Shown: piece by piece, positions 25-19,528 of the stretch
Position numbering within the stretch: position 1 is the first letter of the stretch
Layout of the letters: each line of letters opens with the position of its first letter
From: a virus
Reading direction: 5' to 3' (one strand)
DNA: 21,955 nucleotides
IMG/VR virus record: IMGVR_UViG_3300046804_003856
Span: 1-21,955 of that record
Program-made: the position numbers and the translations under genes
The notes under the pieces: generated by a model
The model's input: only the letters and a program-made list of their open reading frames with translations
Database searches by the model: none
Told to the model about the DNA's origin: nothing

Positions 25-696
25 ATGCCTAAAGAAGATTTTAAAGTTTATTCTCTTAATAAGAAAGAGCTCATAAACAGCTTAATGCAACACAATATAG
101 TTAAGAATATAAACTCTAGAGTTTTAGGTCCCAGAGCTCCAGCTGAAATGCTTGCGCTTTTCTTTCAGCTAGGAAAAGCAGATAAGCAGATAAAAATGCA
201 AGGAGCTATATATGATGGTGCTGTATCGACCAACGCTGAGCAATTTCAAGTAGACGATTTACCTATATATGTAGGGGGTTCGTGTTCAGTATATCCTCGT
301 GTTGATAGATCTGATGTTGTAGTATCTCTTAGATACGGACCAATAGTAGCAGAAGGAGATGTCTTCTTAAGAAGAATTACAGATCTAAAAGGAGCTCCTT
401 TATATGTTGGGGGAGATCTCAGAATAGTTGATGCTCAATCTCTTGAAGGAGCGCCTTTGTACGTGCGAGGCAGTATTATTATAGACAGTCTTACTAAAGA
501 TTTATCTTATCTCAAACCACTAGAGAATACGTTTTGTGAAAAGGATCTAATTATAGGAGAAGCGAGTAATTCTTCTCCTGAAGAAGTCTATTCTAGAGAT
601 GTATGCGACCATATTAGCAACATGCTACCGCTAGTACAAGGAAGCGTACTCGATATCGCTCATATACCTGATGAGGATTATGATGATGAAGAATAA
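25..696 (+). CDS. LRR-like repeat protein, paralogue 1 of 7
   Basis: A 223-residue protein of unknown function, first of seven consecutive paralogues. Residues 1-75 hold a helical-looking N-terminal part. From about 77 to 178 there are four or five repeats of roughly 19 residues, clearest at 119-137 (DLKGAPLYVGG) and 138-156 (SLEGAPLYVRG), each followed by alternating hydrophobic residues as in a beta-solenoid or bacterial leucine-rich repeat. The C-terminus is strongly acidic (DEDYDDEE). No signal peptide or membrane segment is seen, so a cytoplasmic or virion protein is likely. It is closest to the next gene: both share the last two repeats, a DLSY segment and an MLPL-x-QG segment near the end. 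The ATG follows a T-rich leader (TTTTTTTATTTT) with no Shine-Dalgarno sequence. Transcription must start left of the window or within the first 24 bases. Confidence 0.85.
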   Translation: MPKEDFKVYSLNKKELINSLMQHNIVKNINSRVLGPRAPAEMLALFFQLGKADKQIKMQGAIYDGAVSTNAEQFQVDDLPIYVGGSCSVYPRVDRSDVVVSLRYGPIVAEGDVFLRRITDLKGAPLYVGGDLRIVDAQSLEGAPLYVRGSIIIDSLTKDLSYLKPLENTFCEKDLIIGEASNSSPEEVYSRDVCDHISNMLPLVQGSVLDIAHIPDEDYDDEE

Positions 697-714
697 TATC
701 TTTTTTTAATTTTT

Positions 715-1431
715 ATGTCAAAATATAACCCAGATACAGAGCTTAATATTGGAGGTGCTAAAATATACTATCTTGATAGTGCAAAGCTTGCTGTTAATAA
801 AGAAATACTTGATGCTTACTATCAACTAGTAGTTAGAAGTAGTACCTGGAGCAATAGAGTAGACTCAAATAGGTCTGATACTGATGCATTAGATATCTTA
901 ATGAGAGTCCTAAGGAGAGTAAACAGACCTATAAAACTGTATGGCTCTACTATATACACCAATAAAGTAGAGCATGGATCTACTCATTTAGATATAGATG
1001 ATGTACCTATGTATCTCCTTAAAGGAAGATATACAGTATATTACGGAAAAAGCACTCAGGTTCAAGATGTCGTAGTATCTCTCGAAAACGGCCCGATAGT
1101 GGTACAAGACTCTGTATCAATAGTATCACTTGTTAATAATCTCAAAGGGAGTCCATTATATGTCGGTAAGAGTTTCACTACCTACAATGCCACGTCTCTT
1201 GAAGGAGCCCCTTTATATATAGGACAAAATGCAATGATATATGGTTCTAAGCGAGATTTATCTTATTTTGAGTCGCTAAAGAACACCTATATTGGAGAAA
1301 GTTTACTTTTAGGAAATCCTGATGGAGACAAGATATACAGTGTGAGAGAATGTATGGCTATTAAAGACATGCTACCTCTCCTTCAAGGAGATGTCGAAGA
1401 TATATATGACCTCTCATACTTTATAAACTAA
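715..1431 (+). CDS. LRR-like repeat protein, paralogue 2 of 7
   Basis: A 238-residue protein, the nearest relative of the gene before it. Residues 1-90 are a divergent N-terminal part. Residues 96-200 carry the solenoid-type repeats, best seen at about 142-160 (NLKGSPLYVGK) and 161-179 (SLEGAPLYIGQ). The end matches paralogue 1 in DLSY, in the Leu/Gly-rich strand after it, and in DMLPLLQG (about 218-225), but the acidic tail is replaced by YDLSYFIN. An 18-base spacer separates it from the gene before. Its leader is T-rich (TTTTTTTAATTTTT immediately before ATG) and lacks a Shine-Dalgarno sequence. The function is not recognised. The repeats suggest a protein-binding surface, which is an inference from the fold class only. 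Confidence 0.85.
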   Translation: MSKYNPDTELNIGGAKIYYLDSAKLAVNKEILDAYYQLVVRSSTWSNRVDSNRSDTDALDILMRVLRRVNRPIKLYGSTIYTNKVEHGSTHLDIDDVPMYLLKGRYTVYYGKSTQVQDVVVSLENGPIVVQDSVSIVSLVNNLKGSPLYVGKSFTTYNATSLEGAPLYIGQNAMIYGSKRDLSYFESLKNTYIGESLLLGNPDGDKIYSVRECMAIKDMLPLLQGDVEDIYDLSYFIN

Positions 1432-1457
1432 GATGAATAAATTAGATTTTTAATTTT

Positions 1458-2144
1458 ATGCCATACCGTGACCCAGATGCAGAATATGAATACGAAGAGG
1501 ATGACTCTATGTGGGATTCTTTAAAAATACCAAGAGGTAGCTTACCTGACATAGGAAAAGTAGAAAAAATTAACGGAATAAATTTAGTCAGATTCCATAA
1601 TCTTATGAGCTTGTATAAGCTATTTCCTAACAGACGGCACACCAACGTAGATTTTGCAGGTACCGTCTTCGATAGCACTATAATAAATGCATATGAACCC
1701 GCTTTGGGCATGGCTCCTATTATAGTACAACAATCATACACGATAGATCCTCGACAAGACAACCTATTAAACAGCCCTGTAGCAATAGGAAGTAGTCTGC
1801 ATCTCTTAGATAACTATGCTATTACTAGTCTGAAAGGTATACCTGTTTATGTAGGTGAGCTGAAAATAGCAGATTGCTCTCAACTTAAGAAATACGATTA
1901 TTTACCAGCTTATATACATACTGAAGCAGCAGTAGATTATGTGCCCAGTATAGCAGAAGACTTTGCAAATACATTTGTAGGAGAGGATTTACATGTATAT
2001 ATAGGTAACTGGATGAGATCTAATGGTATGTCTATGGAGCAATCTAACATTACTAAGTTTGCTAATGAGGTTACCTCTATGATGAAAAAATCATTTGAGG
2101 AAAGAAATAATCCTATAAATGTCACTATACATATGTATAGCTAA
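1458..2144 (+). CDS. LRR-like repeat protein, paralogue 3 of 7 (divergent)
   Basis: A 228-residue protein, the most degenerate member of the array. The N-terminus is very acidic (DPDAEYEYEEDD, about 5-16). Repeats start near residue 81, but only one copy, TSLKGIPVYVGE (about 123-134), keeps the full consensus; neighbours at 84-96, 102-117 and 145-160 keep the hydrophobic spacing. The segment ANTFVGEDLHVYIG (about 170-183) matches the ENTF/KNTY strand near the ends of paralogues 1 and 2, which places it in the same set. The C-terminal 40 residues look helical and then form a short hydrophobic strand. The leader is TTTTTAATTTT before ATG, with no Shine-Dalgarno sequence. Function unknown. Confidence 0.8.
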   Translation: MPYRDPDAEYEYEEDDSMWDSLKIPRGSLPDIGKVEKINGINLVRFHNLMSLYKLFPNRRHTNVDFAGTVFDSTIINAYEPALGMAPIIVQQSYTIDPRQDNLLNSPVAIGSSLHLLDNYAITSLKGIPVYVGELKIADCSQLKKYDYLPAYIHTEAAVDYVPSIAEDFANTFVGEDLHVYIGNWMRSNGMSMEQSNITKFANEVTSMMKKSFEERNNPINVTIHMYS

Positions 2145-2156
2145 TACTTTAACAAT

Positions 2157-3287
2157 ATGTTCAATATATATAAAACTGACGGTAGACCTGTTAATGGGCC
2201 AGGCAAACTTAGACAACATCCTTCAATGGATTTAAACCTGCATATCATGAATGTTATATCCAACAGGCTACCTTCTCTATCTTTTGGTAAACCTGATCCC
2301 CGTCATCACAATCTTGGTGTAGTCTATGATCAACGAGCGCAAATGGCAGGTAGGATGTCAAAATTAGATAGTGCACTATCTATATTTAAGAATCTATTAT
2401 ACTCTGACTTTAATATAAAAGCGTATCAATTAGATATAGCTCCTGCTGTACTGGATGCTACATACAGTATATATCAGGATCAGCTTGATACACAAAAAAA
2501 TAAACGGTTTAACATATCCCAGTCGCCCGTCTGTATAGTAGACAACTGCGAGCTATTTATAGACACACTTAATTCTCTAGAAGGAGGGCCTGTGTATGTA
2601 GGGGGTACATTTCATTTAGTAGGGGTGAACCCGGCAGAGAATAATTATGACCCTTTTATATTAAGTAAGTCTCCGCTTAATATATCATCTCTTAAGGGTG
2701 CTCCTTTGTATGTAGGAAAACAATTTGATATAAGAAACACAAGAATAAGAAACTGTGAGCACGCCCCTCTTTATATAGGTCATGCAATTCGCATATCCAA
2801 TAATCCTGAGCTAGAATCTCTTAAAGGTCTACCAATTGTCTCAACACGTTCAATAGAGGTTACTGACTGTCCCAAGCTAACTACTAGTGGCTTACTTGAA
2901 GGGCCTAAAGATATAGGGACCCTCGAATGCGATGCTATACACTTCTTCGGTAACATAGATTCATCCGGCTCTGCATATGAAGAATTTGGAAGCAAGTTAA
3001 GAGATATGAAAATTAAATACTTAAATCTTCAATCTTCTTTCTCTTATATAAAAAAGCTGCTTAATACTCTTCATACAAAAGCTAGTAATGCTAGTAATAG
3101 AGATAAATCAAAGATAGAAGAGCAAGTAAATATATTGCAATCTATAATTAAAACTGCACAGGTAAAAACTTCAAAACTAACATACCGAGGTGCTAGTGCT
3201 GTAAAGTACGGAGCTGCGTCAATACCTAAAGAATCATACTCTTTAAATGTTAAATCAGTGAGTATAGATATACTCTTAGATTTATAA
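2157..3287 (+). CDS. LRR-like repeat protein, paralogue 4 of 7 (long form)
   Basis: A 376-residue protein forming a close pair with the next gene. It starts MFNIYKT. Residues 70-117 form a helix-strand N-cap (IFKNLLYSDFNIKAYQLDIAP). Repeats run from about 118 to 255: NSLEGGPVYVGG, SSLKGAPLYVGK, CEHAPLYIGH, ESLKGLP and a last GLLEGP turn, ending in LECDAIHFFGN (about 247-257). The last repeats resemble the 20-residue bacterial leucine-rich repeats of YopM/IpaH-type proteins (LP followed by a hydrophobic strand and an N or C turn). Residues 280-335 look alpha-helical and include a tandem ASNASN. The end is ILLDL. Over 150 central residues about 108 are identical to the next protein, counted by eye. 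Function unknown; no catalytic motif seen. Confidence 0.87.
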   Translation: MFNIYKTDGRPVNGPGKLRQHPSMDLNLHIMNVISNRLPSLSFGKPDPRHHNLGVVYDQRAQMAGRMSKLDSALSIFKNLLYSDFNIKAYQLDIAPAVLDATYSIYQDQLDTQKNKRFNISQSPVCIVDNCELFIDTLNSLEGGPVYVGGTFHLVGVNPAENNYDPFILSKSPLNISSLKGAPLYVGKQFDIRNTRIRNCEHAPLYIGHAIRISNNPELESLKGLPIVSTRSIEVTDCPKLTTSGLLEGPKDIGTLECDAIHFFGNIDSSGSAYEEFGSKLRDMKIKYLNLQSSFSYIKKLLNTLHTKASNASNRDKSKIEEQVNILQSIIKTAQVKTSKLTYRGASAVKYGAASIPKESYSLNVKSVSIDILLDL

Positions 3288-3299
3288 TATATACATAAT

Positions 3300-4412
3300 A
3301 TGTTTAATGTATACAAAACTAATAGTGGAGAGATGGGAAGTACATATGCTCTAGATCTAGGTACATATGTCTCTCACACTGTATATAATCGGATTCCTTC
3401 CTTGTCTTTTGGTAAGAAACCTCATGATATATTATATATATCAAATCTTGTATCAGGTCAGCTACGAGCTAAATCAACAGCGTCAAGATTAAATAGTTCT
3501 CTTTATATATTTAAAGACTTAGCATATGCTGACTTTAATATAAGAGCTAATCAGATAGATATAGCCCCTGTTATACTTAATGCTACATACAATGTATATC
3601 AGGATACACTGAATTACCAAAAAGATAACAGATTTAATATATCAAAATCCCCTGTCTGTATAGCAGGTAACTGCGAGCTGTTCATAGATACACTTAATTC
3701 TCTAGAAGGGGGCCCTATGTACGTAGGAGGTTCATTTACATTAGTAGGCGTAAACCCTGTAGAGAACGACGGCGATGTTTATGGTTTAAGTAGATCCCCT
3801 CTAAACCTTACATCTTTAAAAGGCGCGCCTTTGTATGTGGGATCGACACTTAGGGTAGAGAATACAAAGATAAAAAATTGCGAGCATGCACCTCTTTATA
3901 TAGGACAAGGGATCAGTTTATGCTACAACCCTGAGCTAGAAACACTCAAAGGATTACCGATCGGTCTACGAAAAACAATACGAGTTACTAATTGTCCTAA
4001 GCTAACCACAAGCGGGCTACTTGAAGGACCTAGAGACATAGAGGGCCTCGAATGTGATGCAGTACATTTTTTTGGCAATACAGACCCCTCTAGCTCTGCA
4101 TACGAAGAATTTGGAAGTAGATTAAAGGACATAAAACTTAAATATTTGAGTATTCAGGCCCCATATTCTTATATAGAAAAACTACTTAATACTCTAAGTA
4201 TAAAAGCTAGCAATGCTAGCAATAGAGACCGATCAAAAATAGAAGAACAAATAAATCTATTAACATCTACGCTCAATGTTGCTCGTACAAAAACCTCAAA
4301 AATGGGATATCGAGGTACTTCTACAGTTAGATACGGATCTACTGTAGCACCTAGTGCACTACATTCACTGCGCGCTGAAAGAGTAAATATAGCTATACTC
4401 TTAGATCTATAA
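3300..4412 (+). CDS. LRR-like repeat protein, paralogue 5 of 7 (long form)
   Basis: A 370-residue near-twin of the gene before it, with the same order of parts: MFNVYKT start, helix-strand N-cap (about 68-100), repeats from about 112 to 250 (NSLEGGPMYVGG, TSLKGAPLYVGS, CEHAPLYIGQ, ETLKGLP, LLEGP), LECDAVHFFGN cap, helical region with ASNASN, and ILLDL end. The N-terminal 60 residues differ most from the twin, while the repeat region and the ASNASN helix are conserved. Many third-codon positions differ although the protein is conserved, suggesting an old duplication kept by selection (inference). Even the spacer after the stop resembles the twin's (AATATATAC). No Shine-Dalgarno sequence precedes the ATG. 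Function unknown. Confidence 0.87.
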   Translation: MFNVYKTNSGEMGSTYALDLGTYVSHTVYNRIPSLSFGKKPHDILYISNLVSGQLRAKSTASRLNSSLYIFKDLAYADFNIRANQIDIAPVILNATYNVYQDTLNYQKDNRFNISKSPVCIAGNCELFIDTLNSLEGGPMYVGGSFTLVGVNPVENDGDVYGLSRSPLNLTSLKGAPLYVGSTLRVENTKIKNCEHAPLYIGQGISLCYNPELETLKGLPIGLRKTIRVTNCPKLTTSGLLEGPRDIEGLECDAVHFFGNTDPSSSAYEEFGSRLKDIKLKYLSIQAPYSYIEKLLNTLSIKASNASNRDRSKIEEQINLLTSTLNVARTKTSKMGYRGTSTVRYGSTVAPSALHSLRAERVNIAILLDL

Positions 4413-4423
4413 TATATACTTTT

Positions 4424-5278
4424 ATGTCTAAAGAAAAATTTAATATACTACAGCATACACAGCCAAGTCCTGGTTTTACTAGTTATCTTCATACCAAACA
4501 TATGCATTTTGATCGTAGCCTTCCCTTCGAAGCTATGGAAGTTATGAGCAGAAGATTACATGCAGGAAAATTCAAAGAATTACAAAATACCCTCTCTAAT
4601 CTTGCATTTGTTGATCGTGGTGTAGCAAGCATATACTACCCAGATAATGATGCTTATATGCCTGCTATTGTTAACGGAGCAGTACTGCTGACAGAGAACT
4701 ATAATCGAAGTACACTAGAGAATTTACCTGTATATGTAGGCGGGGGTCTTACGCTGAAGAACGCTGTCAGTGTGATGAGTCTTGTAGGCAGTCCTTTGTA
4801 CGTAGGGGCAGAGTTATTAATAGAAAATACATCTATAGAGAATCTAAAAGGAGGACCAAATTACGTCGGACACGGATACAGGATAGGTAGGAACGAAAAA
4901 CTTTTAAGTCTTGAAGGTATAAACCCAGAGGCATCAACAGTTATGTTATTTTTCAATAACCCTTCATTAACATTAGAACATCTACCTAAAAACTTAAGAC
5001 ATCTTGAATGCGATGCGATCCCATTCATAAAAGGGATTAGAGATGGGTCTCTAAAGAATTTAACAGTATCAGAAAATCTCTTCTTATATATTACAAAAAA
5101 AGAACTCAGTAAGCTCTCTTCTGAAGATAAAGATATATTAGCCCCTGGAAAGTACTCTACATACGATAATCTACGAGAACTCATACAACCAAACAGTACA
5201 CCGTCTAAGAGAGCGTCCCGAAGTGTTCTTGCGCTTCCATACATAAACGTATCAGCTCCATTTGGACATAATGATTAA
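4424..5278 (+). CDS. LRR-like repeat protein, paralogue 6 of 7
   Basis: A 284-residue paralogue. It starts MSKEKFNIL, sharing the FNI(L/Y) signature with other members. A helical N-cap lies at about 46-75, followed by repeats from about 79 to 195: ENLPVYVGGG, MSLVGSPLYVGA, ENLKGGPNYVGH, LSLEGI and EHLPKNLRHL, the last of which closely fits the bacterial LP-type leucine-rich repeat. The cap LECDAIPF (about 194-201) matches paralogues 4 and 5. Next comes a strand and helix with LSKLSSEDKDIL (about 238-249), shared with paralogue 7. The C-terminal 25 residues are Ser/Pro-rich and basic, then hydrophobic. The leader is ATATACTTTT before ATG. Function not recognised. Confidence 0.85.
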   Translation: MSKEKFNILQHTQPSPGFTSYLHTKHMHFDRSLPFEAMEVMSRRLHAGKFKELQNTLSNLAFVDRGVASIYYPDNDAYMPAIVNGAVLLTENYNRSTLENLPVYVGGGLTLKNAVSVMSLVGSPLYVGAELLIENTSIENLKGGPNYVGHGYRIGRNEKLLSLEGINPEASTVMLFFNNPSLTLEHLPKNLRHLECDAIPFIKGIRDGSLKNLTVSENLFLYITKKELSKLSSEDKDILAPGKYSTYDNLRELIQPNSTPSKRASRSVLALPYINVSAPFGHND

Positions 5279-5299
5279 TTTATAGTGCATTACAACTAT

Positions 5300-6085
5300 A
5301 TGAGCAACCAATATAATATCTTAACTAAAAAACGTTTTCTTAATTACGAGAATGATATGGATAGAGATGTAATTAATGCATTTAGAGATAAAAGAGATAT
5401 CCCATCTTGGTATGATGAATCAGCTATAGAAAAAGTATCACATATACAGCAACGCTATAAAAGAGGTAGAACTAGTCTAGAAGATCTACTTAAAAATGTA
5501 GCATATAGTGACTTAATGTTTGATGCAGGTTATGTCAGGAACAATCTGTTGAACATACCAAGTATATTAGATTCATTTCTCCTTATAGATGTAGAATTTC
5601 CTGGAGATTCTCTTGAAGGAGGGCCTGTATTTGTACAGTCTTTAGAAATAACCTCTCCTAATATTAAATCTCTTAAAGGCAGCCCTGTATATGTAAACAA
5701 GAATATGAGAGTTATACTAACATCTATACAGGATCTAGAGGGATGCTCAGATGTTGGCGGGTCTATCACAATAGGTTATAACCCTAATTTAACAAGCCTC
5801 AAAGGCTTACCTCAATCAGTAAGAAATATTGCAATAAAATCAAACCCCTCTCTTAAAACATTTGAAGGTATACCTAAGAAGGGCTTACATTACTTAACTC
5901 TTGAAGCTGACGCTGATGTATTTGTGAATAGTATAAAGTTAGGTGTGTTTGAAGAGCTAAAAATAAAAGGCTTTACAGACTTTATGTCAACCAAAGAAAG
6001 TGTGCGCGAATTATCTTCTGAGGATAGAGCTATATTCAAAAAATTTAGTGAGAAGCAACATCCCGTAAGCCTTTATTCTCGATAA
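5300..6085 (+). CDS. LRR-like repeat protein, paralogue 7 of 7
   Basis: A 261-residue paralogue, last of the array. I chose the ATG at 5300 (MSNQYNILTKK) rather than an in-frame GTG at 5285: every other member uses ATG, and this start aligns with the FNIL/FNIY opening of its relatives. The helical N-cap is at about 58-82. Repeats at about 86-195 include DSLEGGPVFVQS, KSLKGSPVYVNK, QDLEGC, TSLKGLPQSV and KTFEGIPKKG, with strands such as RNIAIKSNPSL that fit bacterial leucine-rich repeats well. The cysteine of the LECDA cap is replaced (LEADADVF), but the following VRELSSEDRAIF segment matches paralogue 6. The stop lies 12 bases from that of the convergent spike gene. Function unknown. Confidence 0.83.
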   Translation: MSNQYNILTKKRFLNYENDMDRDVINAFRDKRDIPSWYDESAIEKVSHIQQRYKRGRTSLEDLLKNVAYSDLMFDAGYVRNNLLNIPSILDSFLLIDVEFPGDSLEGGPVFVQSLEITSPNIKSLKGSPVYVNKNMRVILTSIQDLEGCSDVGGSITIGYNPNLTSLKGLPQSVRNIAIKSNPSLKTFEGIPKKGLHYLTLEADADVFVNSIKLGVFEELKIKGFTDFMSTKESVRELSSEDRAIFKKFSEKQHPVSLYSR

Positions 6086-6097
6086 CATAAAATACTA

Positions 6098-9000
6098 TCA
6101 GCATATCTTTGGGATTGTGGCAGTATTGTCTTGAGCTGAAGTTGCGAGAGAATCCGATCCAGAGAACTTATCTCCTCGAGGTCTCTCATAGCTGTGATAA
6201 TGTGCATGTGTACTAGCCGGATGCACGTGCGGAAAATTAAACACCGTAACAGGCCCTACTGCACATACTCCTATTCCTGTAAACCCGTCTATCGGCACAA
6301 CAGACATAATAAGAGACATATATTCAGTAACCAGATCATCTATACCTTGAGCTGTTGCAAGATAACCTATCTGGCCTGGTGAGGAGTAATGTAATACGCT
6401 TTTCAAGCTTGCGCTCATTGCTTTAAGAGCAGGGCCACCAGTAGTTAGCCATCTAGCAGTCTCTCCTGTATAATCTGGAGAACTCGATGTACTAGTCTTC
6501 TCAACATCATAAGAAGTGTTCAGAGATGGAGTACTCACTCCCCCTTGCGCATATACTCCTCCCATAGTATTTAAGTTAGCAGCGCAGTGCATGCTACCTA
6601 CAACGTGTACATTGGTGGCAGCCTCTCCTAACTGTATAGATTGGCCATACATTTGTACTGCAGCACCGTTTATTTTTGTTATACCATTATTATTCCCTAC
6701 CACAATAGAGTTACCAGTCATCTCTATAGAGCCGCCGTGCATATTAAGCTGACCTCTTGTCTCCGTGAAAATGCCACCGCTTCCTGTACGAATGTGTAAC
6801 TTATTACCGATAAACATATCGTAATTGCCGAGATCAGGGCCGTTCATCTCGAGAGGTTCATATTGCTTTATATTTTCAGTTTTAAAGCCCATAGCTCCTT
6901 CTTTTTCGTATATTTCACTTCCAGCAAGTACTTGCGTGCCTGGTATTTCTCTATAAGGCTCGAGATTATTTGGCGCCAACCCTACTACTAAAGAAGCGTT
7001 ACGAGCTACTTTTACCTTATAGTCTCCGCCAAAACCTGTCTTTTTTTCTAGATCCAGTACCTTATCTTGTATTGACGATAAGTTTGCTACGTACTCCTCA
7101 TCTGTAGCTGTTGCTTGAGGGCCTCCTGTGTATGTAGGAACTCTATGATTCGTACAAGTACCGCAAGAAGTACTTGTCATAAACTTTTTTTGCTTACCAA
7201 TTTTTATAGGTTTCAGCGCTACACTGAGTATTTCTTTCGCAAACCCCGGCACTGCTCCAGTTCTCGGTAGCATTTTATTAAGAGCTTTATTAAGAGTACG
7301 TAGTACAGTATTTATTATACCGTCTCCCTTAGTTGATAATATAGTTCTGTTACAATTGGGACAAGGTGCTGTTCCGGTAGGGACAATAGTGTTCTTTCTC
7401 TTATTGTGTACAGGCTCGATAGCTTCATATATAGCTTGCGCCGCACTCACAGAGTCAGAATCCCATTTGCCTATCTCTAGAGTAAAATCCTCTCCTATAG
7501 TTAGATTGTTTTCTCCTGCCACATACTCGCTGTTATCTCCGAAAACAGAATGAAACTCATCCCCATCCGTTGTACGAGATCTCCGTACTGGAGCATAATC
7601 TACTGTTCCAGTACTCATCATTTCTAACGTACCACCACCCTGAGTAGATATCTTAAATCCACTCTCTTCTATATCTCCCTCAACACTGTCATGTCTTACT
7701 TGAGTCAATAGTTCTATGGCTCCTGCCCCGGGCTGAACCATAGAGGTAGTTAACACTCTATCTGTTTCAGTACTTACAGGGCCTTTTGATCCTCCTGAAG
7801 ATCTCTGCTTAACACCGACCCAGTCTTCTGTTACTATATGCTGTGCAAAGTAAACTGGGTACATAGGGTCCCCACCCTCAAAAAACACCCATACATGTGC
7901 ACCAGGTGTAGGGGTAGAGAATATACCGCCTGGCAAACCATCTAATGGTGTACTTACATTTCTATCTGCTAGAGGGTTAGCAGATTTAAACATGTCAAAA
8001 ATAGCAGTTATAGGGTTCTCTGTACCTTGCGTCTTTGTGTCCTTAGCAACAGTACTTGAAGCTTTAGCGCCACGGCCACTGTCATATGCGGTACCTTCTG
8101 CTTTAGCTGTAGCGAGAGAAATTTCTGTGCTATCTTTTGCTTTGTTGAGCCATGACTGCTGTACAGCAAAGTCTTCTTTTGTTTTAGGTTCAATTATCTG
8201 ATTAAAAGTCTTTTCGTTAGCTTTATCTCTTAGACCGTACCACTTATACTGTCCTTTACTATTTGATGTAGCCTTAATAGCTGCTCTAAAGTTTCCTTGT
8301 GCAGCAAGAGTATATGCTTTAGGGTTATACGATCGCAAATACTCTATACCTGCGTTTAACTGAGCAAGCTTAGACGTCTTATCTAGCCCTACTCCATTCA
8401 AGCTTCTAGGGTCTCCTTGAAACTTACTTTTTACACTAGCTGCGTCATTACTATTTGTACGCAAGAAGCCTAGATCAGCATACAAGTCATATGCAGCAGA
8501 AGGACTCAGACCTCTCTTTATACCGTCATTTATGTTACTATTAGCAATTTGTGTACGTCTGCCTTTGCTATTATAAAGGGTTACAGTCTTATTATCTAAG
8601 TTTGAGTACGCTTCTCCTGTATTCCAGCCTGACTCAGAATAGCCTATAGCAGTAACAAATATCTCTAAGTTTCGTCTCTCAATTTCTTTAGAAACAGGCT
8701 TGTCGGTAACTGATATATCTCCAGATATATGATATTCACTTGAAGATGTAGGGGCATCTGTTTTAACAGGAGATGTATTCTTAGTATCGGCGGCCGTGCC
8801 AGAGGTGTTTGTAGCTTGCTTGGTAGTAGGGTTATAATATGTAGCACTACCACCACCAAATAAAGGAGCGGCATATTCAGCCCATGGCAATAGAGGTTCA
8901 ATTTGCTCTAGAAGCTCGGAGGGAAAATTATCAATAGTATTGTCTCCCAGGCTTCTTAGATATAGATCCTCCTTCAAAGAGTTAACTTGCTTTACTAAAG

Positions 9001-9100
9001 GCAAGCTCACCTGTGGCACAAAGATCTTAACTCTGTTCCTTTCTTCAGGGTCAGAATTACTTAAAACAATACCTCTATAGTTACCAAAAAACTTCTCCAT
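6098..9100 (-). CDS. baseplate central spike, gp5/VgrG-like, with lysozyme-like insertion
   Basis: A 1000-residue spike that should sit under the hub and pierce the cell envelope. Residues 1-83 begin an OB fold as in T4 gp5 and VgrG (YRGIVLSN, RNRVKIFVPQ, LPWAEYAAPLFGGG). The fold seems to resume at about 386-425 (GGIFSTPTPGAHVWVFFEGGDPMYPVYF). Between them, low-complexity linkers flank a helical segment (about 138-320) with YSESGWN at 154-160, resembling the catalytic-Glu helix of lysozymes and transglycosylases; the exact family is unclear. Residues 480-545 and 765-850 have short repetitive strands typical of spike beta-helices. C580, C583, C646 and C649 could bind a metal. H958, H960, H965, H967 and H969 near the C-terminus resemble metal-binding spike tips. 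T4 gp5 is 575 residues, so this is large. The ATG follows the previous stop after three bases, without a Shine-Dalgarno sequence. Confidence 0.85.
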   Translation of the reverse strand: MEKFFGNYRGIVLSNSDPEERNRVKIFVPQVSLPLVKQVNSLKEDLYLRSLGDNTIDNFPSELLEQIEPLLPWAEYAAPLFGGGSATYYNPTTKQATNTSGTAADTKNTSPVKTDAPTSSSEYHISGDISVTDKPVSKEIERRNLEIFVTAIGYSESGWNTGEAYSNLDNKTVTLYNSKGRRTQIANSNINDGIKRGLSPSAAYDLYADLGFLRTNSNDAASVKSKFQGDPRSLNGVGLDKTSKLAQLNAGIEYLRSYNPKAYTLAAQGNFRAAIKATSNSKGQYKWYGLRDKANEKTFNQIIEPKTKEDFAVQQSWLNKAKDSTEISLATAKAEGTAYDSGRGAKASSTVAKDTKTQGTENPITAIFDMFKSANPLADRNVSTPLDGLPGGIFSTPTPGAHVWVFFEGGDPMYPVYFAQHIVTEDWVGVKQRSSGGSKGPVSTETDRVLTTSMVQPGAGAIELLTQVRHDSVEGDIEESGFKISTQGGGTLEMMSTGTVDYAPVRRSRTTDGDEFHSVFGDNSEYVAGENNLTIGEDFTLEIGKWDSDSVSAAQAIYEAIEPVHNKRKNTIVPTGTAPCPNCNRTILSTKGDGIINTVLRTLNKALNKMLPRTGAVPGFAKEILSVALKPIKIGKQKKFMTSTSCGTCTNHRVPTYTGGPQATATDEEYVANLSSIQDKVLDLEKKTGFGGDYKVKVARNASLVVGLAPNNLEPYREIPGTQVLAGSEIYEKEGAMGFKTENIKQYEPLEMNGPDLGNYDMFIGNKLHIRTGSGGIFTETRGQLNMHGGSIEMTGNSIVVGNNNGITKINGAAVQMYGQSIQLGEAATNVHVVGSMHCAANLNTMGGVYAQGGVSTPSLNTSYDVEKTSTSSSPDYTGETARWLTTGGPALKAMSASLKSVLHYSSPGQIGYLATAQGIDDLVTEYMSLIMSVVPIDGFTGIGVCAVGPVTVFNFPHVHPASTHAHYHSYERPRGDKFSGSDSLATSAQDNTATIPKIC

Positions 9101-9103
9101 ACA

Positions 9104-10645
9104 TTAAAACAATCGCGTATTTGTATACGCTCTATAATTAATCTTGTTGCCTGAACGGTCAACTTGCTGCACAGAGCCGTCTATACTTAAGCGAGGTAAC
9201 ACGAATATAGGATTTACTGTAGGGTTGTACTGATATTGTGAAGAGCCAAAATGAAATGGCTGAGCAAATGTAAATGTAATGCCGCCCTTTTTCTTAGCAT
9301 TACCTATGAATAGTTTTTTCTTACCCTTGAGTACATTTTTAACAAAAGCACTACGTATACCATTACCGATAAAGCCTTTTGCGTTTGTAGATAAAGCCTG
9401 TATTATACCGAGCGTTTTTTGAGCGTCCTTAGGTAGCTGACTTATTAACCAATTTATACTTGAGTATCTTCTAAGTACCTTAAGAGAGTTTAATAGAGGT
9501 GCTTCTATTTTAGTTTGTAGGTTTGAGACCTTATCCAACCCGGGTATAGCTATGTTAATGTTTGTACCCAGAGCTTCATACATATAGGTAAATATACCTT
9601 TCTCAGTTATAGTAGTTAGTTCATTGCTCAAGTCTGCAAAGATATTAGTCATAACTGACTCTCCTTCTGCTGCACCGAGTAGAGTGTTTACAAAGTCTTT
9701 TAGATTCTCTCCAAAATCTTTGAGAAAGCCTCCAATTTCTGCAAAAACACTCTCTAATACACTAGGTAAAGCTGTTTGCTCTAATAACCAATCAAGAGCT
9801 GACATTAACAATATAGTTAAAGCTTTAATAGCAGCTTTTATTTTGCGCTGCAGCTTTACTACAGCAGCTTGAAAGTTTTGAAATATTTGATTTATTGCAT
9901 CTATAGCTTGCTCAAGCTCTTCTCTAATAGTATATAGTAGTGTACGAGCGCTATTGAACATATCTGCTGGTATATTAGCAAATCTGTTTTCTTTCATCTT
10001 AGCGTTTAAAGTAGCCCACCCACTATTAAAAACATCTTTGCCGTTCTCTCTACTTGATACCCGTTTAAATATACTTTTTGTAGCGCTATTTCCAGGCAAT
10101 GAGCTGTCTATGTTATCCTGATCTGCATCCTCTTTTATACGCCTAGCTCTATGTTCCGCAGTTGCTTTGCGTATTCTTGCCGCAGCTATATTGAGCTGAT
10201 CTAGACCAAAAGAGGCTGCCTCATCTATAGCGTTTAAAGTTTGTGTTATTGAAGACCCTAACCTGTCTGTAGTCTCAGAGAAAAAGCCATCTACTCCTAT
10301 AGCAGTCTTAGCAGTTATTGCTTGTAAGCTATTTATATGCTTTAACTTGCGTAAGCTACGCGCCACGTAAGAGTCTGTTGCACCCGTTTCATCGGCTACA
10401 GTAGAAATCTTATCATACTCTTCCTGTACTTTATCTGCATTTAAATTCTTACTACCAGCTGGACCTAACCCGTCAGAAGTATTTCTTGTTTTATTGAGAT
10501 ATGTAATCCACTTTAATCTCTCTGCGTTTCCGCCGCTGCTCCATAAAGGAAGATAAGGCTTAAGCGTGTTGAATTCGGCCCAAGTTAACCCTGCTACAGG
10601 GCTTGCAGATTCTTTTACGTTAGATATATTCTTAGGTACAGCCAT
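9104..10645 (-). CDS. baseplate-region helical protein of unknown function
   Basis: A 513-residue protein I do not recognise. The opening (LTWAEFNTLKPYLPLW, about 20-35) is followed by a mostly helical body. Charged helices lie at about 145-180. A long amphipathic stretch at about 245-320 (EELEQAIDAINQIFQNFQAA and onward) could form a coiled coil or bury in another protein, and it contains a hydrophobic patch ALTILLMSALDWLL. The last 80 residues look strand-rich and polar, ending in NYRAYTNTRLF. It lies between the hub and spike genes with 3-base spacers on both sides, so a structural or assembly role at the hub-spike junction is likely by position only. It is not an obvious lysozyme, fibre or chaperone. 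Confidence 0.75.
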   Translation of the reverse strand: MAVPKNISNVKESASPVAGLTWAEFNTLKPYLPLWSSGGNAERLKWITYLNKTRNTSDGLGPAGSKNLNADKVQEEYDKISTVADETGATDSYVARSLRKLKHINSLQAITAKTAIGVDGFFSETTDRLGSSITQTLNAIDEAASFGLDQLNIAAARIRKATAEHRARRIKEDADQDNIDSSLPGNSATKSIFKRVSSRENGKDVFNSGWATLNAKMKENRFANIPADMFNSARTLLYTIREELEQAIDAINQIFQNFQAAVVKLQRKIKAAIKALTILLMSALDWLLEQTALPSVLESVFAEIGGFLKDFGENLKDFVNTLLGAAEGESVMTNIFADLSNELTTITEKGIFTYMYEALGTNINIAIPGLDKVSNLQTKIEAPLLNSLKVLRRYSSINWLISQLPKDAQKTLGIIQALSTNAKGFIGNGIRSAFVKNVLKGKKKLFIGNAKKKGGITFTFAQPFHFGSSQYQYNPTVNPIFVLPRLSIDGSVQQVDRSGNKINYRAYTNTRLF

Positions 10646-10648
10646 ATG

Positions 10649-12334
10649 TTAAACTTTTGAAGTGCTTGGTGTCAACGAATCAGTAGTTTTTAGCTTTGTA
10701 TAGCTGCTGACTCTAACAGCTATACAATTGTTAGTGTATCCGTTATCTTTATTTATTGTGTGAGTTACTTCTGTGAGAAGCCATTGACCGTTAAACTTTT
10801 TCTCAAAATCGTTAAGTCTGTCTACATTAGAGATTATGTTAATAAATTTACCTGGAGTTCTAACAGTAAGTCCTTTTGCAGAGAATGTTATTGCTTGATT
10901 TAGAAATACGCTGCGCATAATCATATCATTACGAGACGCATATTGAGCTGCTACTGTTTGATGTACAGTGTGCTGTATCTTAGTATTTACACCGTTTAGT
11001 TTGGCTTTATTTGTAGATAATAAAGGCTCATGTCTAGAGCCGTTATATAGGTTATTTTTTATAATCTTCTCCTTAACAGCAGTATGTACCGCTTCAATAC
11101 TGTTTTGCTTACAATATATAGACCAGGTACTTGAGGCTATATCATATTGAACTACAGGTCTATTAGTAATACTCATATCATCAACCCCTGACATAGGCGC
11201 AATATTATAGTTATATATTATAGAAGTATTAGGTATATGTATGTTAACTAATTTTCCGTTTACATAGCTTTGACCTATATCATATGTTATATTAACAGAC
11301 GGGTAATCTTCTGTATTAGTAATTGACTGTAGAGTAAGCGTTTCTACGCACCCTTCTTGAAGATTATTATTTGGGGAAGCTTTTTCAAAAATCTTGTCTA
11401 TACCTACTAAACTCCATTCTTTTTTATATCTGTGAAGACGTAAGATACCCGGCAAAAAATTCATCTCATATTTCTCTGTACCATCTCTAACATAGCTATC
11501 TGAAGCTATATAGTTACTGAGCAAGTAGGATAAGTTATCATTTACATTGTAGGTAGCTGGAGTAGTATAAAATATATAGTTAGTATCTGACCCCTCGTCC
11601 CACTCCTTACTAAATGCTGCAACGCTTATGTCAGGCTCTTCTATGCTACCTTCTTCAGAAAAGCCTATCATAAGCTCTTTTTGCTCAGTAAAGATACTCT
11701 CTTCGTCCTGTATCTCAGGGGAGTTACAAACTGTCTGAATAAAGTCTTTAACAGATGCGCCTATCAGACACTTACCTTCTTTGGCATTAATAAGCAGAGC
11801 AGGGTTAGTAGAGTTAGTACCAGATTGATTAGCGATAACTCTTGTAGCAAGATATCTTGTTGACCACAATATGCTTGACTCTTCAAATATTTGAAAACGC
11901 TCATCAACAAATTCTAGCTGCTTAAATTTCTCAATACCGTTTGTACTAGAGACGTCTTGTATTGATACAACTGCAAAATCATAGTTAATCTCCCAATCTT
12001 CAGCAAATTTTGTATCAATGTTTTCTTCGAGATTGATGTTTGCTATAGGAAAGAATCGAATATTTAGCCGGTTACGACCATCAGAGCGGAATGTGTATAT
12101 ATTACCTTGGTAGCTTTTTGTATTATCAATATCTCCTCTCTCAAAAAATTCTAAGTCGTTTTTAAGTAAAAGAGAGCCAGATGTAACCCACGATAAGAGA
12201 GACTCTTTTATAGTTATTAGCTCTATAAAACCTTGAGGTATCTCTATCTTTTGTACACCATTGTATAATGTAGCTTTGAAATGATAGAATTGATCGTTAA
12301 GGTTTACTGTAAATTTTGAGTCTAGAGGATCCAT
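10649..12334 (-). CDS. baseplate hub protein, gp27-like
   Basis: A 561-residue protein predicted to form the ring that joins tail tube and spike. The N-terminal part (LNDQFYHFKATLYNG, then ITIKESLLSWVTSGSLLLKN) resembles the first tube-like domain of gp27/VgrG-type hubs. The C-terminal part is diagnostic in style: FLNQAITFSAKGLTVRTPG, then a Phe-rich turn and FNGQWLLTEVTHTINKDNG, matching the hub pattern in which a Gly-x-Trp strand precedes a T-x-V-x-H strand. I start it at the ATG at 12334, two bases after the stop of the preceding gene. A GTG at 12346 in the same frame would overlap that gene and add only four residues. The spike gene follows after one other gene, in keeping with gp27-gp5 partnership. 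Confidence 0.75.
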   Translation of the reverse strand: MDPLDSKFTVNLNDQFYHFKATLYNGVQKIEIPQGFIELITIKESLLSWVTSGSLLLKNDLEFFERGDIDNTKSYQGNIYTFRSDGRNRLNIRFFPIANINLEENIDTKFAEDWEINYDFAVVSIQDVSSTNGIEKFKQLEFVDERFQIFEESSILWSTRYLATRVIANQSGTNSTNPALLINAKEGKCLIGASVKDFIQTVCNSPEIQDEESIFTEQKELMIGFSEEGSIEEPDISVAAFSKEWDEGSDTNYIFYTTPATYNVNDNLSYLLSNYIASDSYVRDGTEKYEMNFLPGILRLHRYKKEWSLVGIDKIFEKASPNNNLQEGCVETLTLQSITNTEDYPSVNITYDIGQSYVNGKLVNIHIPNTSIIYNYNIAPMSGVDDMSITNRPVVQYDIASSTWSIYCKQNSIEAVHTAVKEKIIKNNLYNGSRHEPLLSTNKAKLNGVNTKIQHTVHQTVAAQYASRNDMIMRSVFLNQAITFSAKGLTVRTPGKFINIISNVDRLNDFEKKFNGQWLLTEVTHTINKDNGYTNNCIAVRVSSYTKLKTTDSLTPSTSKV

Positions 12335-12336
12335 AG

Positions 12337-12930
12337 CTATTTGCACTCTGGTGCCAACAGCTCTACCTTCATTTGATCAAAAACAAAAGTTGAGGTGCAC
12401 CCTATTTCTTCAGTTCTCTTATAATCAAACTCAATTTCACTTAACTTTGTTATAAAAACATTATTATACGCAAAACGTACTACTTTATTATTATATTCAT
12501 CTAAGCCGTATATTTCAAAAGAAGTAACATAATCTCTAAAGCTATTTGTTAAAGGTTTGGTTATTGCTGTATCAAAGAAGCCTGTGGAAGCTTCATTATA
12601 CAAATCTAGCCAATTCCACAATAGCCAGTAATTGAAGAATCTATTATCTATCACACACCCTAAAGTCAGAGAGGAGTATGACGGTCTACTAAAGCTTGTA
12701 GTCTTATGTACTTGACCAGCGTATGGAGAATCTATCTCAGCAACTGACACAGAAGGCACTGGCGTACCATAGACACTAAATTGTAGACTATTAGAATCTA
12801 AGGTCTTGAAATTTTCATTGCATGTACTGTTTCTATAAAGCTTGTTTGCTCTATTTTTTAAGGCTATAGGGATGTCCAGTACAGCAAGAAACTTATCTCT
12901 ACGGGCTTTGTTGTAAATTGTCTGATCCAT
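12337..12930 (-). CDS. tail-tube-fold protein (third copy), hub- or tube-associated
   Basis: A 197-residue protein with the style of the gp19 tube fold: a central region GTPVPSVSVAEIDSPYAGQ (about 55-73), an aromatic-rich helix NYWLLWNWLDLYNE (about 100-113), a strand SFEIYGLDEYNNKVVRFAY (about 137-155) and a final beta strand with CTSTFVFDQMKVELL. In tube proteins a similar loop, helix and closing strand order is seen. It lies one base after the terminase stop and directly before the hub gene, so it may be a tube-to-hub adaptor, comparable in place to gp54-like or tail-completion proteins. The assignment rests on pattern and context, not on a strong motif. Confidence 0.6.
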   Translation of the reverse strand: MDQTIYNKARRDKFLAVLDIPIALKNRANKLYRNSTCNENFKTLDSNSLQFSVYGTPVPSVSVAEIDSPYAGQVHKTTSFSRPSYSSLTLGCVIDNRFFNYWLLWNWLDLYNEASTGFFDTAITKPLTNSFRDYVTSFEIYGLDEYNNKVVRFAYNNVFITKLSEIEFDYKRTEEIGCTSTFVFDQMKVELLAPECK

Positions 12931-12931
12931 A

Positions 12932-14680
12932 CTAATAATCGAGAAGCCATGCTATATCCTCCATATCTACAAAAGATCTGTCAGTCATCTTAGGTCGAAT
13001 GATATTTAAGTTATAGAAGTCTTTATTAGTATTTATCTCAAGCCCTTCTTCTGCATTATCTTCGTTATTGTTGTCTTGTTGCTGTATAAGAGCGCTCTTA
13101 CTAATAAGATGTGAGGTATCCTCAAAACCAGAGATATGCTTAGGCAAGCCTTGAGCATCAAAATCTATTACATCAAAATGTTTCTGTACTATCTCAGGAA
13201 AAAGTACAAACAATCCCCATGTAAGAGACATAACTCTGTCGTCGTGAGTTTCAGAACTTTTTCTCTGCCAAGTGTCATTAGGCATTTTTACAAACGTTTC
13301 AAACTCCTGTAAAGTATCTAAATCTCTTAAAGTAACTACTCGAAGCTTATTAAACCAATAACGCATGTTGCGTATGCCGTGGTACTTCGTATTTGTATGG
13401 GCCAATATACCTGATCTATGATTAGAATTATACTTTATCTGAGAGCTGTGAGTATAATTAACGAGATTTGGATATTCGTGTGTTTGTATTAAAGCATCTA
13501 CGACACCTCCTCCGCAATTGTTTCTCTCCACTGCTAGCGGCGGGTTTCCCCACTGCTTGGCTATTTCTACTAACTTTGTAGTAAAGTGATATGGATCAAG
13601 CTTGTTGTTAGCATATACAGCAACTTGCTCTATATTAGTCAGATCTGTTATATCCATTACCTGTATTACAGAATAGTTACGACCTACCCCTTCACCAATA
13701 TCTACTCCTATCGTATACAGCTTACCTGCTTCAGGTCTTTTCCATATTTTATAGTCTCCATCATCAAGCACTATAACAGGTTTTTGTAACTTCGCTCGCA
13801 TGCCTTCTATTACGTCGAAGTCTAGAACAGATTCTGCTTCTTCTATAAAAGAGTTACCAAACTCAATATTAAATGCCTCTACAGAGCCTAAAAGCTTTAT
13901 TTGCTCTTGTCTCCATACTTCATCTCTCTCTGGTCTCTCCCACCAGTCTACTCGGGTATGGGCCCATCCGTTTTCTCCTTTTAGTGCGCCGTTGTATAAA
14001 TCATAAAACTTATTCTGTGTACCATTAGGTGTACTAATGACGATGATCTTTGATTTCTTCGAGGTTGAGATGGTAGGTATGGCACTTCTCCATAGCTCAT
14101 TTAAAATTTTCTTATCAATAAATGCAAACTCATCTACAATAAGAACATTAACAGAACCACCACGAGCAGCGCTAGAACTAGTAGCGCTGATTGTTATTGT
14201 AGAGTCGTTAGTGAATACAATACCATCTTTTCGCCAAGATTTGACGCCAGGTTTTAAGAAGTTAGGTAGCTGTTCGTATGCCATCTTAACTCTCTCAAAT
14301 TGCTCTATAGCTGTATCTTCTTTGTTAGCTATAATAACAATTTTTTTGTTGTCTTGAAAGCAAGCCGTCCATAGAGCATATATAGCAACAACTGTTGACT
14401 TGCCCATCTGTCGAGATGCAAGGATAACACTAAATCTATTATCCTTAAGCATTTGTAATATTTTTTGCTGGAACTCAAATAGCTTAATCTTTTCTTTACC
14501 CTGATCGAGAACAGTAATATAGAAGTGCTCCTGGGCAAATCTGAGTATACTGTCTGCACAGGATCGTACCTCTGCAAGCATTTCCTCTGTCCAAGTAAAG
14601 GTAGCTCCTTTCCTGGGCAGATTCTCATTACCCATGTAATGAGATGAACCTAGATTTAGCTCTTCTATTTCTTTTGACAT
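12932..14680 (-). CDS. terminase large subunit, T4 gp17-like
   Basis: A 582-residue DNA-packaging motor that cuts concatemeric phage DNA and drives it into the prohead using ATP. The ATPase domain has Walker A SRQMGKST (89-96) and Walker B VNVLIVDE (177-184, D183/E184), then the coupling motif STPNG (216-220). The RNase H-type nuclease has the expected acidic residues D327 (GVDIGEG), E385 (LAVERNN, followed by CGGG) and D480/D481 (THDDRVMSL). Length is close to T4 gp17 (610). The C-terminal 80 residues are acidic and Asn-rich. It sits inside the tail operon rather than beside a small terminase, which is not seen here. Stop and start at both ends are one base from the neighbours; no Shine-Dalgarno sequence. 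Confidence 0.97.
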   Translation of the reverse strand: MSKEIEELNLGSSHYMGNENLPRKGATFTWTEEMLAEVRSCADSILRFAQEHFYITVLDQGKEKIKLFEFQQKILQMLKDNRFSVILASRQMGKSTVVAIYALWTACFQDNKKIVIIANKEDTAIEQFERVKMAYEQLPNFLKPGVKSWRKDGIVFTNDSTITISATSSSAARGGSVNVLIVDEFAFIDKKILNELWRSAIPTISTSKKSKIIVISTPNGTQNKFYDLYNGALKGENGWAHTRVDWWERPERDEVWRQEQIKLLGSVEAFNIEFGNSFIEEAESVLDFDVIEGMRAKLQKPVIVLDDGDYKIWKRPEAGKLYTIGVDIGEGVGRNYSVIQVMDITDLTNIEQVAVYANNKLDPYHFTTKLVEIAKQWGNPPLAVERNNCGGGVVDALIQTHEYPNLVNYTHSSQIKYNSNHRSGILAHTNTKYHGIRNMRYWFNKLRVVTLRDLDTLQEFETFVKMPNDTWQRKSSETHDDRVMSLTWGLFVLFPEIVQKHFDVIDFDAQGLPKHISGFEDTSHLISKSALIQQQDNNNEDNAEEGLEINTNKDFYNLNIIRPKMTDRSFVDMEDIAWLLDY

Positions 14681-14681
14681 A

Positions 14682-14978
14682 CTACCACTTACCTACAGGA
14701 CAGTTTGCAGCCTTAAGGTAAGTTTTCGTAGCCATATAACATCCGCACTTAGAGCATCTAGTATTATCTACATAAAATTCACACGCTTGACACACAGCTA
14801 ATCTCTTTTCTGCTTCTTCTGCTGTAAGAGATATGCCTTCTCCTGCTACAGCAGATCTTACTGTTGCAGCTGCTGTCTTTAATAGATCCTTACCCATATC
14901 TACCATAGACGGCATAGTATGTTCTTGAGCTTGTTTTAATTGCTGTTCTCTTATGTTATCCATATGTTTATTAAACAT
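14682..14978 (-). CDS. small zinc-ribbon protein
   Basis: A 98-residue protein with a helical N-terminal half and a C-terminal cysteine cluster: C63 and C66 (CQAC), C75, C78 and C80 (CSKCGC) and C93 in a final CPVGKW. The spacing fits a zinc ribbon. Small proteins with this ending are common in T4-like phages and often lie near structural genes; that is from memory. The function is not known; binding to DNA or to a packaging or baseplate partner is possible. It sits between gp53-like and terminase genes, one base from each. The ATG encoding M6 is a possible alternative start. Confidence 0.75.
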   Translation of the reverse strand: MFNKHMDNIREQQLKQAQEHTMPSMVDMGKDLLKTAAATVRSAVAGEGISLTAEEAEKRLAVCQACEFYVDNTRCSKCGCYMATKTYLKAANCPVGKW

Positions 14979-14979
14979 G

Positions 14980-15330
14980 CTAACTATTATTTATCTGTGT
15001 TAGTAAGGCTACAACTACATTTTTATTTAGTATACGTAGAGGAGAGTAATGTATAGGCATCTTAGTAGGGTCGTTAATATTATTTGCAGCGCATATGATC
15101 CACCATAAGTCTATAGTATTGTAGTACCTGTAAGATAGACCTGTATACGAATCTCCTTTAACTGGGTAATGTAGAGTAAAGAAGCTCGGCAATATGTCTT
15201 GATCTACGCTAACTGTATTTAATAAATTATAGAAATATCTTCCATCTGAGTCTTGATAAATTTTAAATAAATTTTCAAGTCTTGCGCTCTCGAGAGAAGG
15301 TAGATCTGCTATGTCGTTTTGTTTATTCAT
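14980..15330 (-). CDS. baseplate wedge protein, gp53-like
   Basis: A 116-residue protein that should help join baseplate wedges around the hub. The core is GDSYTGLSYRYYNTIDLWW (about 59-77) followed by IICAANNINDP. T4 gp53 and its relatives share this LysM-like helix pair, with a Tyr-rich stretch, D-x-WW and an Asn-rich loop ending in Pro. The family in T4 is longer (about 196 residues), so this is a short form with little outside the core. The last strand-like part is VVVALLTQINNS. Three bases separate it from the gene before; its stop TAG is followed by C and the next ATG. Confidence 0.75.
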   Translation of the reverse strand: MNKQNDIADLPSLESARLENLFKIYQDSDGRYFYNLLNTVSVDQDILPSFFTLHYPVKGDSYTGLSYRYYNTIDLWWIICAANNINDPTKMPIHYSPLRILNKNVVVALLTQINNS

Positions 15331-15333
15331 ATC

Positions 15334-16539: not shown

Positions 16540-16549
16540 AAGAAGTTAA

Positions 16550-16559
16550 TAATACTTAT
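16550..16559 (-). promoter_or_regulatory. shared leader motif ATAAGTATTA (gp48-like gene)
   Basis: The minus-strand 10-mer ATAAGTATTA lies 10 bases before the ATG at 16539 and recurs before the tape-measure-like gene. Both are in the only long spacers of this part of the operon. It may be a ribosome-recruiting leader or promoter element, or chance. Confidence 0.25.
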
Positions 16560-16564
16560 TGATA

Positions 16565-18751: not shown

Positions 18752-18756
18752 CGTTA

Positions 18757-18766
18757 TAATACTTAT
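18757..18766 (-). promoter_or_regulatory. shared leader motif ATAAGTATTA (tape-measure gene)
   Basis: Second copy of the minus-strand 10-mer ATAAGTATTA, 5 bases before the ATG at 18751. The different distance to the start codon argues against a classical ribosome-binding site and slightly for a transcriptional element. Confidence 0.25.
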
Positions 18767-18769
18767 CTA

Positions 18770-19528
18770 CTAGATATTTACTAGAAGAAGAGTACTAACA
18801 ACATCGGCGAGAGACACATCGTTTACGCTATATATTCTCTCTCTTTCGTTTTTTATATTAGAAATAAACTCATATGTCTTGTTGAGCAGACTAAAAGGTA
18901 GTAGCTCAATAACATCTCCAGCTTTTACTATATTACTACTAGTTATATCAAAGTGCTGATCCTTTACTGTAATACTCTTAACACACTTAAGAGCTTCAAC
19001 TAATAGCATTTGTACTACATATACTGACTTCTTTTCTTCATCTTCTAGTACGTTTGCTGGTGGATTTATATACATAACATCATCGATACCTACACTAGGT
19101 ATACCTAGGGTGAGAGTAATATCCCCTTCTGCTACCTTAACATCTGTAAATGTGTTGTTAAAGTATTTCTCCTTTAAGCTATGTATAATATCGCTTGCTC
19201 TAACATCTTTATTATTCTGTAGGGAGATAGAGCTTTTTATATTATCTCTATAATGTAATATAATAGAATCCCTATCATATAAAGATAAAGATAACAGATC
19301 TATATCTTGTTCTGTACAGTTTTCTTTTATTACCTTTAGCAAATGCTTGTTAAGATCGTGTACAGTACTGTTAGAGTTAATATTAATCTTTAAGAATTCT
19401 TTTTGCTGAGCAGCAGTAAGACAAACAAAGCTTACCTCTTTCCCTAAAGAAGGAAGCCATATTTGGATAGTATTTTTGCTCGCTGCTTCTTTCATTAAAG
19501 AAACTATAAGATCTATATTGTTACTCAT
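18770..19528 (-). CDS. baseplate hub assembly protein, gp26/gp51-like
   Basis: A 252-residue protein whose start resembles the T4 baseplate family that includes gp26 and gp51: IQIWLPSLGKEVSFVCLTAAQQKEFLKI (about 22-49) fits a strand, the LPS-x-G turn and a helix beginning with QQ. The middle has a beta segment (VAEGDITLTLGIPSVGIDDV) and the C-terminal half is helical (FSLLNKTYEFISNIKNERER). In T4 these proteins help assemble the hub but are not clearly stoichiometric virion parts. It precedes the tape-measure gene. Upstream, TATAAATA lies 5 bases before the ATG. No Shine-Dalgarno sequence. Confidence 0.6.
   Translation of the reverse strand: MSNNIDLIVSLMKEAASKNTIQIWLPSLGKEVSFVCLTAAQQKEFLKININSNSTVHDLNKHLLKVIKENCTEQDIDLLSLSLYDRDSIILHYRDNIKSSISLQNNKDVRASDIIHSLKEKYFNNTFTDVKVAEGDITLTLGIPSVGIDDVMYINPPANVLEDEEKKSVYVVQMLLVEALKCVKSITVKDQHFDITSSNIVKAGDVIELLPFSLLNKTYEFISNIKNERERIYSVNDVSLADVVSTLLLVNI

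Follow-up and report, generated by a model that had tools for sequence, protein, structure and literature searches.

A tandem array of seven predicted LRR paralogues in a phage, with copies that differ mainly at the concave face

Introduction

In LRR proteins, the x residues of the LxxLxLxxN motif face the concave side of the solenoid, which is usually the ligand-binding side. The LRRs of dsDNA viruses have reportedly been treated by Matsushima in 2021. For the present study, the reference group consists of proteins of tailed phages with repeats of about 21 residues, e.g., those of Vibrio phage VB_VaC_TDDLMA (PHROG 21719 / 7816, without an assigned function) and of the tandem arrays at the loci L004, L016, and L022. 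For a Vibrio phage from coral mucus, the gene reported to vary most within the species is an LRR-like one that has been inserted into the tail module (PMC10945359). For giant viruses, a crystal study of FNIP LRRs led to the proposal that many ligands are recognized (PMC9525666). In the literature, we found no study in which tandem arrays of phage LRR genes, or selection at their faces, are described.

Here, we analyzed a stretch of viral DNA of 21,955 nucleotides (the window), which contains an array of seven paralogues, W1 to W7. The array resembles the phage 21-residue LRR proteins in the repeat spacing, the LxGxPxxVxG signature, the tandem paralogues, and the variable concave face. In contrast to that group, the repeats of W1-W7 are few, irregular, and 19-25 residues apart, most of the Cys and Asn ladder is missing, the end domains are different, and there is no PHROG match. 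Like the FNIP/FGxxFN LRRs of giant viruses (CroV), W1-W7 form a virus-encoded LRR family with many paralogues, but the CroV proteins have another repeat consensus and a eukaryotic-virus setting (PMC9525666), and the window proteins have no F-box. The predicted LRR fold is shared with the effectors YopM, IpaH, and SspH, and the SspH1 LRR was the top structural match of the W5 model; unlike these effectors, W1-W7 are encoded by phage genes and have a different repeat, no ligase domain was found, and there is no sign of injection. Proteins of the internalin J type have a cysteine ladder, and the protein profile of L004 matches internalin-J (E 3.3e-19), whereas W1-W7 have neither a secretion signal nor a cysteine ladder, and a search of PDB sequences with the window profile was negative. 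A fixed framework with a varying concave face is common to W1-W7 and other LRR binding repertoires.

Results

Positions 25-6085 of the plus strand contain seven intact, closely packed ORFs with intergenic gaps of 6-26 bp. In BLASTP comparisons, all pairs of W1-W7 were related, with E values from 1e-166 to 1.2e-4 (the best E value in 20 rounds with shuffled copies was 0.002), confirming the seven side-by-side paralogues of an earlier note on this DNA. The features are as follows, with the evidence for the predicted LRR paralogues in brackets:

25-696, plus strand: W1, 223 aa, LRR paralogue of subset A (ORF, BLASTP, hhalign)
715-1431, plus strand: W2, 238 aa, LRR paralogue of subset A, LRR fold predicted (BLASTP, AlphaFold2 model)
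1458-2144, plus strand: W3, 228 aa, LRR paralogue, most diverged of the seven (BLASTP, hhalign)
2157-3287, plus strand: W4, 376 aa, LRR paralogue of subset B (BLASTP, site comparison)
3300-4412, plus strand: W5, 370 aa, LRR paralogue of subset B, with residues 121-258 (approximately) predicted to form an LRR solenoid (BLASTP, AlphaFold2 model, site comparison)
4424-5278, plus strand: W6, 284 aa, LRR paralogue of subset C (BLASTP, hhalign, site comparison)
5285-6085, plus strand: W7, 266 aa, GTG start, LRR paralogue of subset C (BLASTP, hhalign, site comparison)
6086-6097, no strand: convergent boundary of 12 bp that separates the LRR array from the tail operon, with a different conserved gene there in relatives
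6098-21941, minus strand: conserved T4-like tail and packaging module (context, outside the array)

The array and the spike gene run towards each other, their stop codons being 12 bp apart, and thus the described position of the array beside the tail operon was correct. A TAG is present at bases 4-6, 18 bp ahead of the first ATG (that of W1), and therefore a preceding gene of the operon has possibly been lost at the contig edge and the array may be longer than seven genes; the window is a fragment, and seven is the minimum number of copies. Scans for sigma-70 promoters and terminators yielded fewer sites than were found in shuffled sequences. On the minus strand, in the gap between two tail genes (21251-21317), a perfect CCCCTCTTGGTA/TACCAAGAGGGG hairpin is located beside a TATAAATA motif, and the pair resembles a terminator with an adjacent late promoter of the T4 type. 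By eye, a Shine-Dalgarno-like sequence was absent from most genes on both strands of the window (1-21955), and this scarcity hints at a host that initiates translation without one, e.g., one of the Bacteroidota.

The proteins were split into N-terminal, solenoid, and C-terminal parts, which were compared using hhalign. The SLxGxPxYVG solenoid was the part common to all seven, in agreement with the repeats reported before, with probabilities of 97-99% among the three pairs W1/W2, W4/W5, and W6/W7, and of 62-85% for W3. End caps, which had been thought to be shared across the array, were common only within these pairs; between subsets, the probabilities for the N- and C-terminal parts were below 1%, except for one 12-column match at 9%. 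The proposed division into three subsets was thus valid for six genes, while W3 turned out to be an outlier. The identities over the aligned part were 59% for W4/W5, 36% for W1/W2, and 32% for W6/W7 (BLASTP). The whole-gene dN/dS of W4/W5 was about 0.22, indicating that both copies have been kept functional.

Structural models of W5 and W2 were generated with AlphaFold2 on an alignment of just seven sequences, and the end-domain predictions, which rest on such alignments, are of low confidence. LRR proteins are curved solenoids in which every repeat of 20-30 residues adds a parallel strand, with a core of the LxxLxLxxN type. In the W5 model, a solenoid with a strand in each repeat spanned residues 121-258 approximately, mostly with pLDDT values of 65-89 when taken over stretches of ten residues. 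It was followed by a mixed/helical part, and residues 1-117 were poorly predicted. The strands 183-187, 204-208, and 226-230 occupied identical repeat columns. When the W5 model was compared with the PDB, LRR proteins topped the list, namely the SspH1 LRR (Z 11.3, rmsd 4.6 over 173 residues), SDS22 (Z 10.8), internalin C (9.7), and IpaH2.5 (9.3). The solenoid was weaker in the W2 model, which matched mostly LRR chains with a best Z of 7.9, a level that is also reached by chance arrangements; taken alone, this model is weak evidence for an LRR. Together, both models and the sequence repeats make a solid case for a predicted LRR fold of the whole family, and thereby the LRR-type solenoid suspected earlier was recovered, clearly for W5 and less so for W2.

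Searches of PHROGs and Pfam with W1-W7 yielded nothing convincing, including no recognizable trimeric or tail-attachment domain, and Foldseek against BFVD gave zero matches at E 0.001. A weak Pfam match of W2 to Bflower_3 (E 0.0016) was discarded, being below the curated cut-off and unsupported by the W2 model. Because Pfam revealed no domain at all, and thus no NEL ligase domain, in the C-terminal parts of W4-W7, the idea that W1-W7 are E3-ligase effectors of the IpaH/SspH kind was rejected. The comparison with YopM and IpaH made in the earlier note is therefore appropriate for the fold, but does not extend to an attached catalytic domain. Simple hydropathy analysis revealed no signal-like or membrane segments in W1-W7, and the proteins are thus expected to stay cytoplasmic or to be packaged.

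The divergence between the copies was quantified separately for the concave columns, i.e., columns 10, 11, 13, 15, and 16, numbered from the L of LxGxP. This choice rests on LRR geometry, and the per-column variation in four other loci had already been seen beforehand; the strands of the W5 model coincide with columns 11-15. In a repeat-by-repeat comparison of W4 and W5, 15 of 20 concave sites differed, compared with 10 of 64 elsewhere (Fisher p 1.6e-6). The pN values were 0.52 and 0.08, respectively, while the pS values were similar (0.72 and 0.58), and just 6 of the 20,349 possible five-column sets reached the concave count. For W1/W2, all 15 concave sites differed versus 20 of 48 elsewhere, and for W6/W7 the respective numbers were 5 of 5 and 7 of 16. 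Across the three pairs, pS was similar in the concave and other classes, and other exposed positions were more conserved than the concave positions. The copies differ mainly at five positions of the LRR concave face. As dS in the window is near saturation, the dN/dS of its concave sites is not read as greater than one, and positive selection in the window itself is unproven.

Peptide-pattern scans of IMG/VR and GTDB contigs with W5, with W4 and W5, and with the seven-protein alignment revealed no close relative, although such scans may miss relatives. In the phage collection, W5 matched just two Vibrio phage LRR genes, and W1 and W6 matched none. The profile of the seven proteins matched L085 (E 3e-28) and L004, which is on a viral contig of 77.8 kb and comprises five LRR paralogues in tandem, made up of clean LxGAPxYVGGxFxCxxNxLTS repeats. 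The L004-type repeat was present in one gene each of two Vibrio phages, in a run of four genes in a 735 kb phage, and in sets of two to four adjacent genes of further contigs. A 413 kb contig had 25 LRR profile matches and a 195 kb contig had 12, whereby one gene may hold several. The copy number thus varies from one to many in other phages, which answers the question in the earlier note of whether it is always high. Judged from these matches, tandem LRR genes are a recurrent phage feature, and the repeat is found in many unrelated phages.

W1-W7 have retained the LxGxPxYVG half of the repeat, while the CxxN half of the family signature LxGxPxxVxGxFxCxxNxLxS is mostly gone. Furthermore, inspection of the alignment showed that the N-terminal parts of W1-W7 differ from the L004-type N-terminal cap (IEEWLxxMxIxNYTI). 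Because both elements are missing, W1-W7 probably belong to the phage 21-residue LRR family but are no clean members of it, and the array is best classified as a divergent, degenerate branch of this LRR. In L085, a 709-aa frame right after a distant terminase relative (8011-10137) carries phage LRR repeats at its C-terminus, from which it appears that LRR modules also exist fused to other domains. In L004, an ATPase gene and then a possible VWA gene are located directly ahead of the LRR array (7530-9867, plus strand), and a minus-strand ORF (755-1243) may encode a pyruvoyl-dependent arginine decarboxylase.

Selection at the concave columns was quantified for twelve other phage LRR loci. Nei-Gojobori counts were made between repeats, partly within one protein, with a bootstrap over repeats, and the resulting intervals ignore shared ancestry. 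L012, L014, and L016 are on one contig, and L003, L009, L015, and L085 are among eight loci that had been kept out of the column choice. For five of the twelve loci (L003, L009, L014, L015, and L085), which are on five different contigs, the concave dN/dS was higher than one with a bootstrap interval excluding one. It was indistinguishable from one for L007, L012, L016, L022, and L023, and below one for L004 (0.57) and L008. Framework columns had dN/dS values of at most 0.09 in the eight-locus set. For L003 and L085, other exposed columns were also near one, and the concave contrast rests on few synonymous changes. At several unrelated phage LRR loci, selection thus appears to diversify the concave face.

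The minus strand of the window contains terminase, tail-tube-like, hub-like, and wedge-like genes and thus a T4-like packaging and tail module. The terminase is about 34% identical to those of cultured T4-like phages, and a search with an alignment of two terminases retrieved 70 viral loci, most with 45-51% identity. Most of the gene order in this module is found in the relatives as well. On the opposite strand past the spike gene, fourteen relatives have a conserved gene of 265-363 aa that is unrelated to W1-W7, indicating that the convergent boundary is old and that the LRR array is the differing part. With both LRR profiles, the array was found in none of 15 relatives with the same tail module (records of 50-226 kb, possibly incomplete), and one of the 15 had a single LRR gene, located elsewhere. 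By this distribution, the array is accessory and not part of the core tail, and the idea of W1-W7 as core T4-like tail proteins was discarded. Two LRR loci are near tail genes, L004 between tape-measure-like and baseplate genes and L007 near tail-fibre genes, whereas those of L016 and L022 are near terminase, homing-endonuclease, clamp-loader, or helicase genes. Therefore, neither a constant neighbourhood of tail genes nor a functional link to the tail, both considered in the earlier note, was borne out. The window, a genome fragment, contains no YxDD-like motif as a sign of a diversity-generating retroelement.

Two further observations concern the tail module. The spike gene (6098-9100, minus strand; 1000 aa) is a fusion; most relatives have two separate genes instead, one for an OB-domain spike and one for a protein of about 690 aa with paired CxxC motifs. 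A zinc-ribbon-like gene (14682-14978, minus strand; 98 aa) is located upstream of the terminase gene, while in relatives it is downstream of the hub gene, which is taken as a small rearrangement.

Discussion

The explanation that we favor is that W1-W7 are small, soluble LRR proteins with a binding function, from an accessory family that has expanded in tandem. The LRR framework would be retained in all copies, while the concave binding face would be particular to each copy and the end domains to each subset. The site of action would most likely be inside the infected cell, where different or variable host proteins, either defence components or other takeover targets, would be bound and then blocked or diverted. 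We infer for W1-W7 a cytoplasmic location, protein ligands, an anti-host purpose, and a recognition or decoy role. The accessory distribution, the free copy number, and the change focused on the ligand face are in line with a set of binders that address different or variable host targets. The earlier view that the differences matter for binding gains support, because the divergence is focused on the ligand face and the same face is apparently diversifying in other loci. Several points count against this explanation: dS in the window is near saturation, the end domains are predicted with low confidence, the concave dN/dS is clearly below one in L004 and L008 and not above one in L007 and L022, and the tail-side location of L004 and L007 would also suit a role in the virion. 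Overall, we assign a probability of about 0.55 to the reading that W1-W7 are cytoplasmic binders with diversified specificity for different or variable host-cell targets, perhaps host defences.

It is rather unlikely that W1-W7 belong to the virion as adhesins or tail decorations, with diverged faces that widen the host range via binding to different cell-surface molecules. The adjoining spike gene, the tail-side loci mentioned above, and the high variability of the tail-module LRR-like gene of the Vibrio phage (PMC10945359) would be in accordance with such a role. However, the array is on the strand opposite to the tail operon and is not found in relatives that have this tail module, the LRR loci of L016 and L022 have neighbours other than tail genes, and no domain for trimerization or tail attachment was recognized.

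We regard as improbable a neutral or weakly selected expansion, in which tandem repeats duplicate easily and the LRR is simply under the weakest constraint at its concave positions. The window dN/dS, not demonstrably above one with dS near saturation, and the concave value of 0.57 in L004 would be compatible with it. Yet all seven ORFs are intact, the overall dN/dS of W4/W5 is low, other exposed positions remain more conserved, and the values above one in L003, L009, L014, L015, and L085 are beyond the reach of relaxed constraint. A hetero-oligomer of non-identical subunits, with the diverged faces as specific contacts between the copies, would fit the seven genes, which point in one direction, probably form a single operon, and have end domains that differ between the subsets, but it is very unlikely given that the copy number is free in other phages, from one to many.

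Large phage genomes contain scattered LRR genes without an assigned function. The excess of change at the ligand face, in the window and at several unrelated loci, indicates that selection on phage LRR proteins probably acts on which partners they bind, and the annotation gap becomes a directly approachable experimental question. As a tentative generalization, to which we give less than even odds, tailed phages including this one may keep LRR gene repertoires with concave faces under diversifying selection. These would be sets of protein binders that evolve against variable host proteins, as a mirror image of LRR immune receptors. If this is true, the immune-recognition scaffold of animals and plants would be used by phages in the opposite direction.
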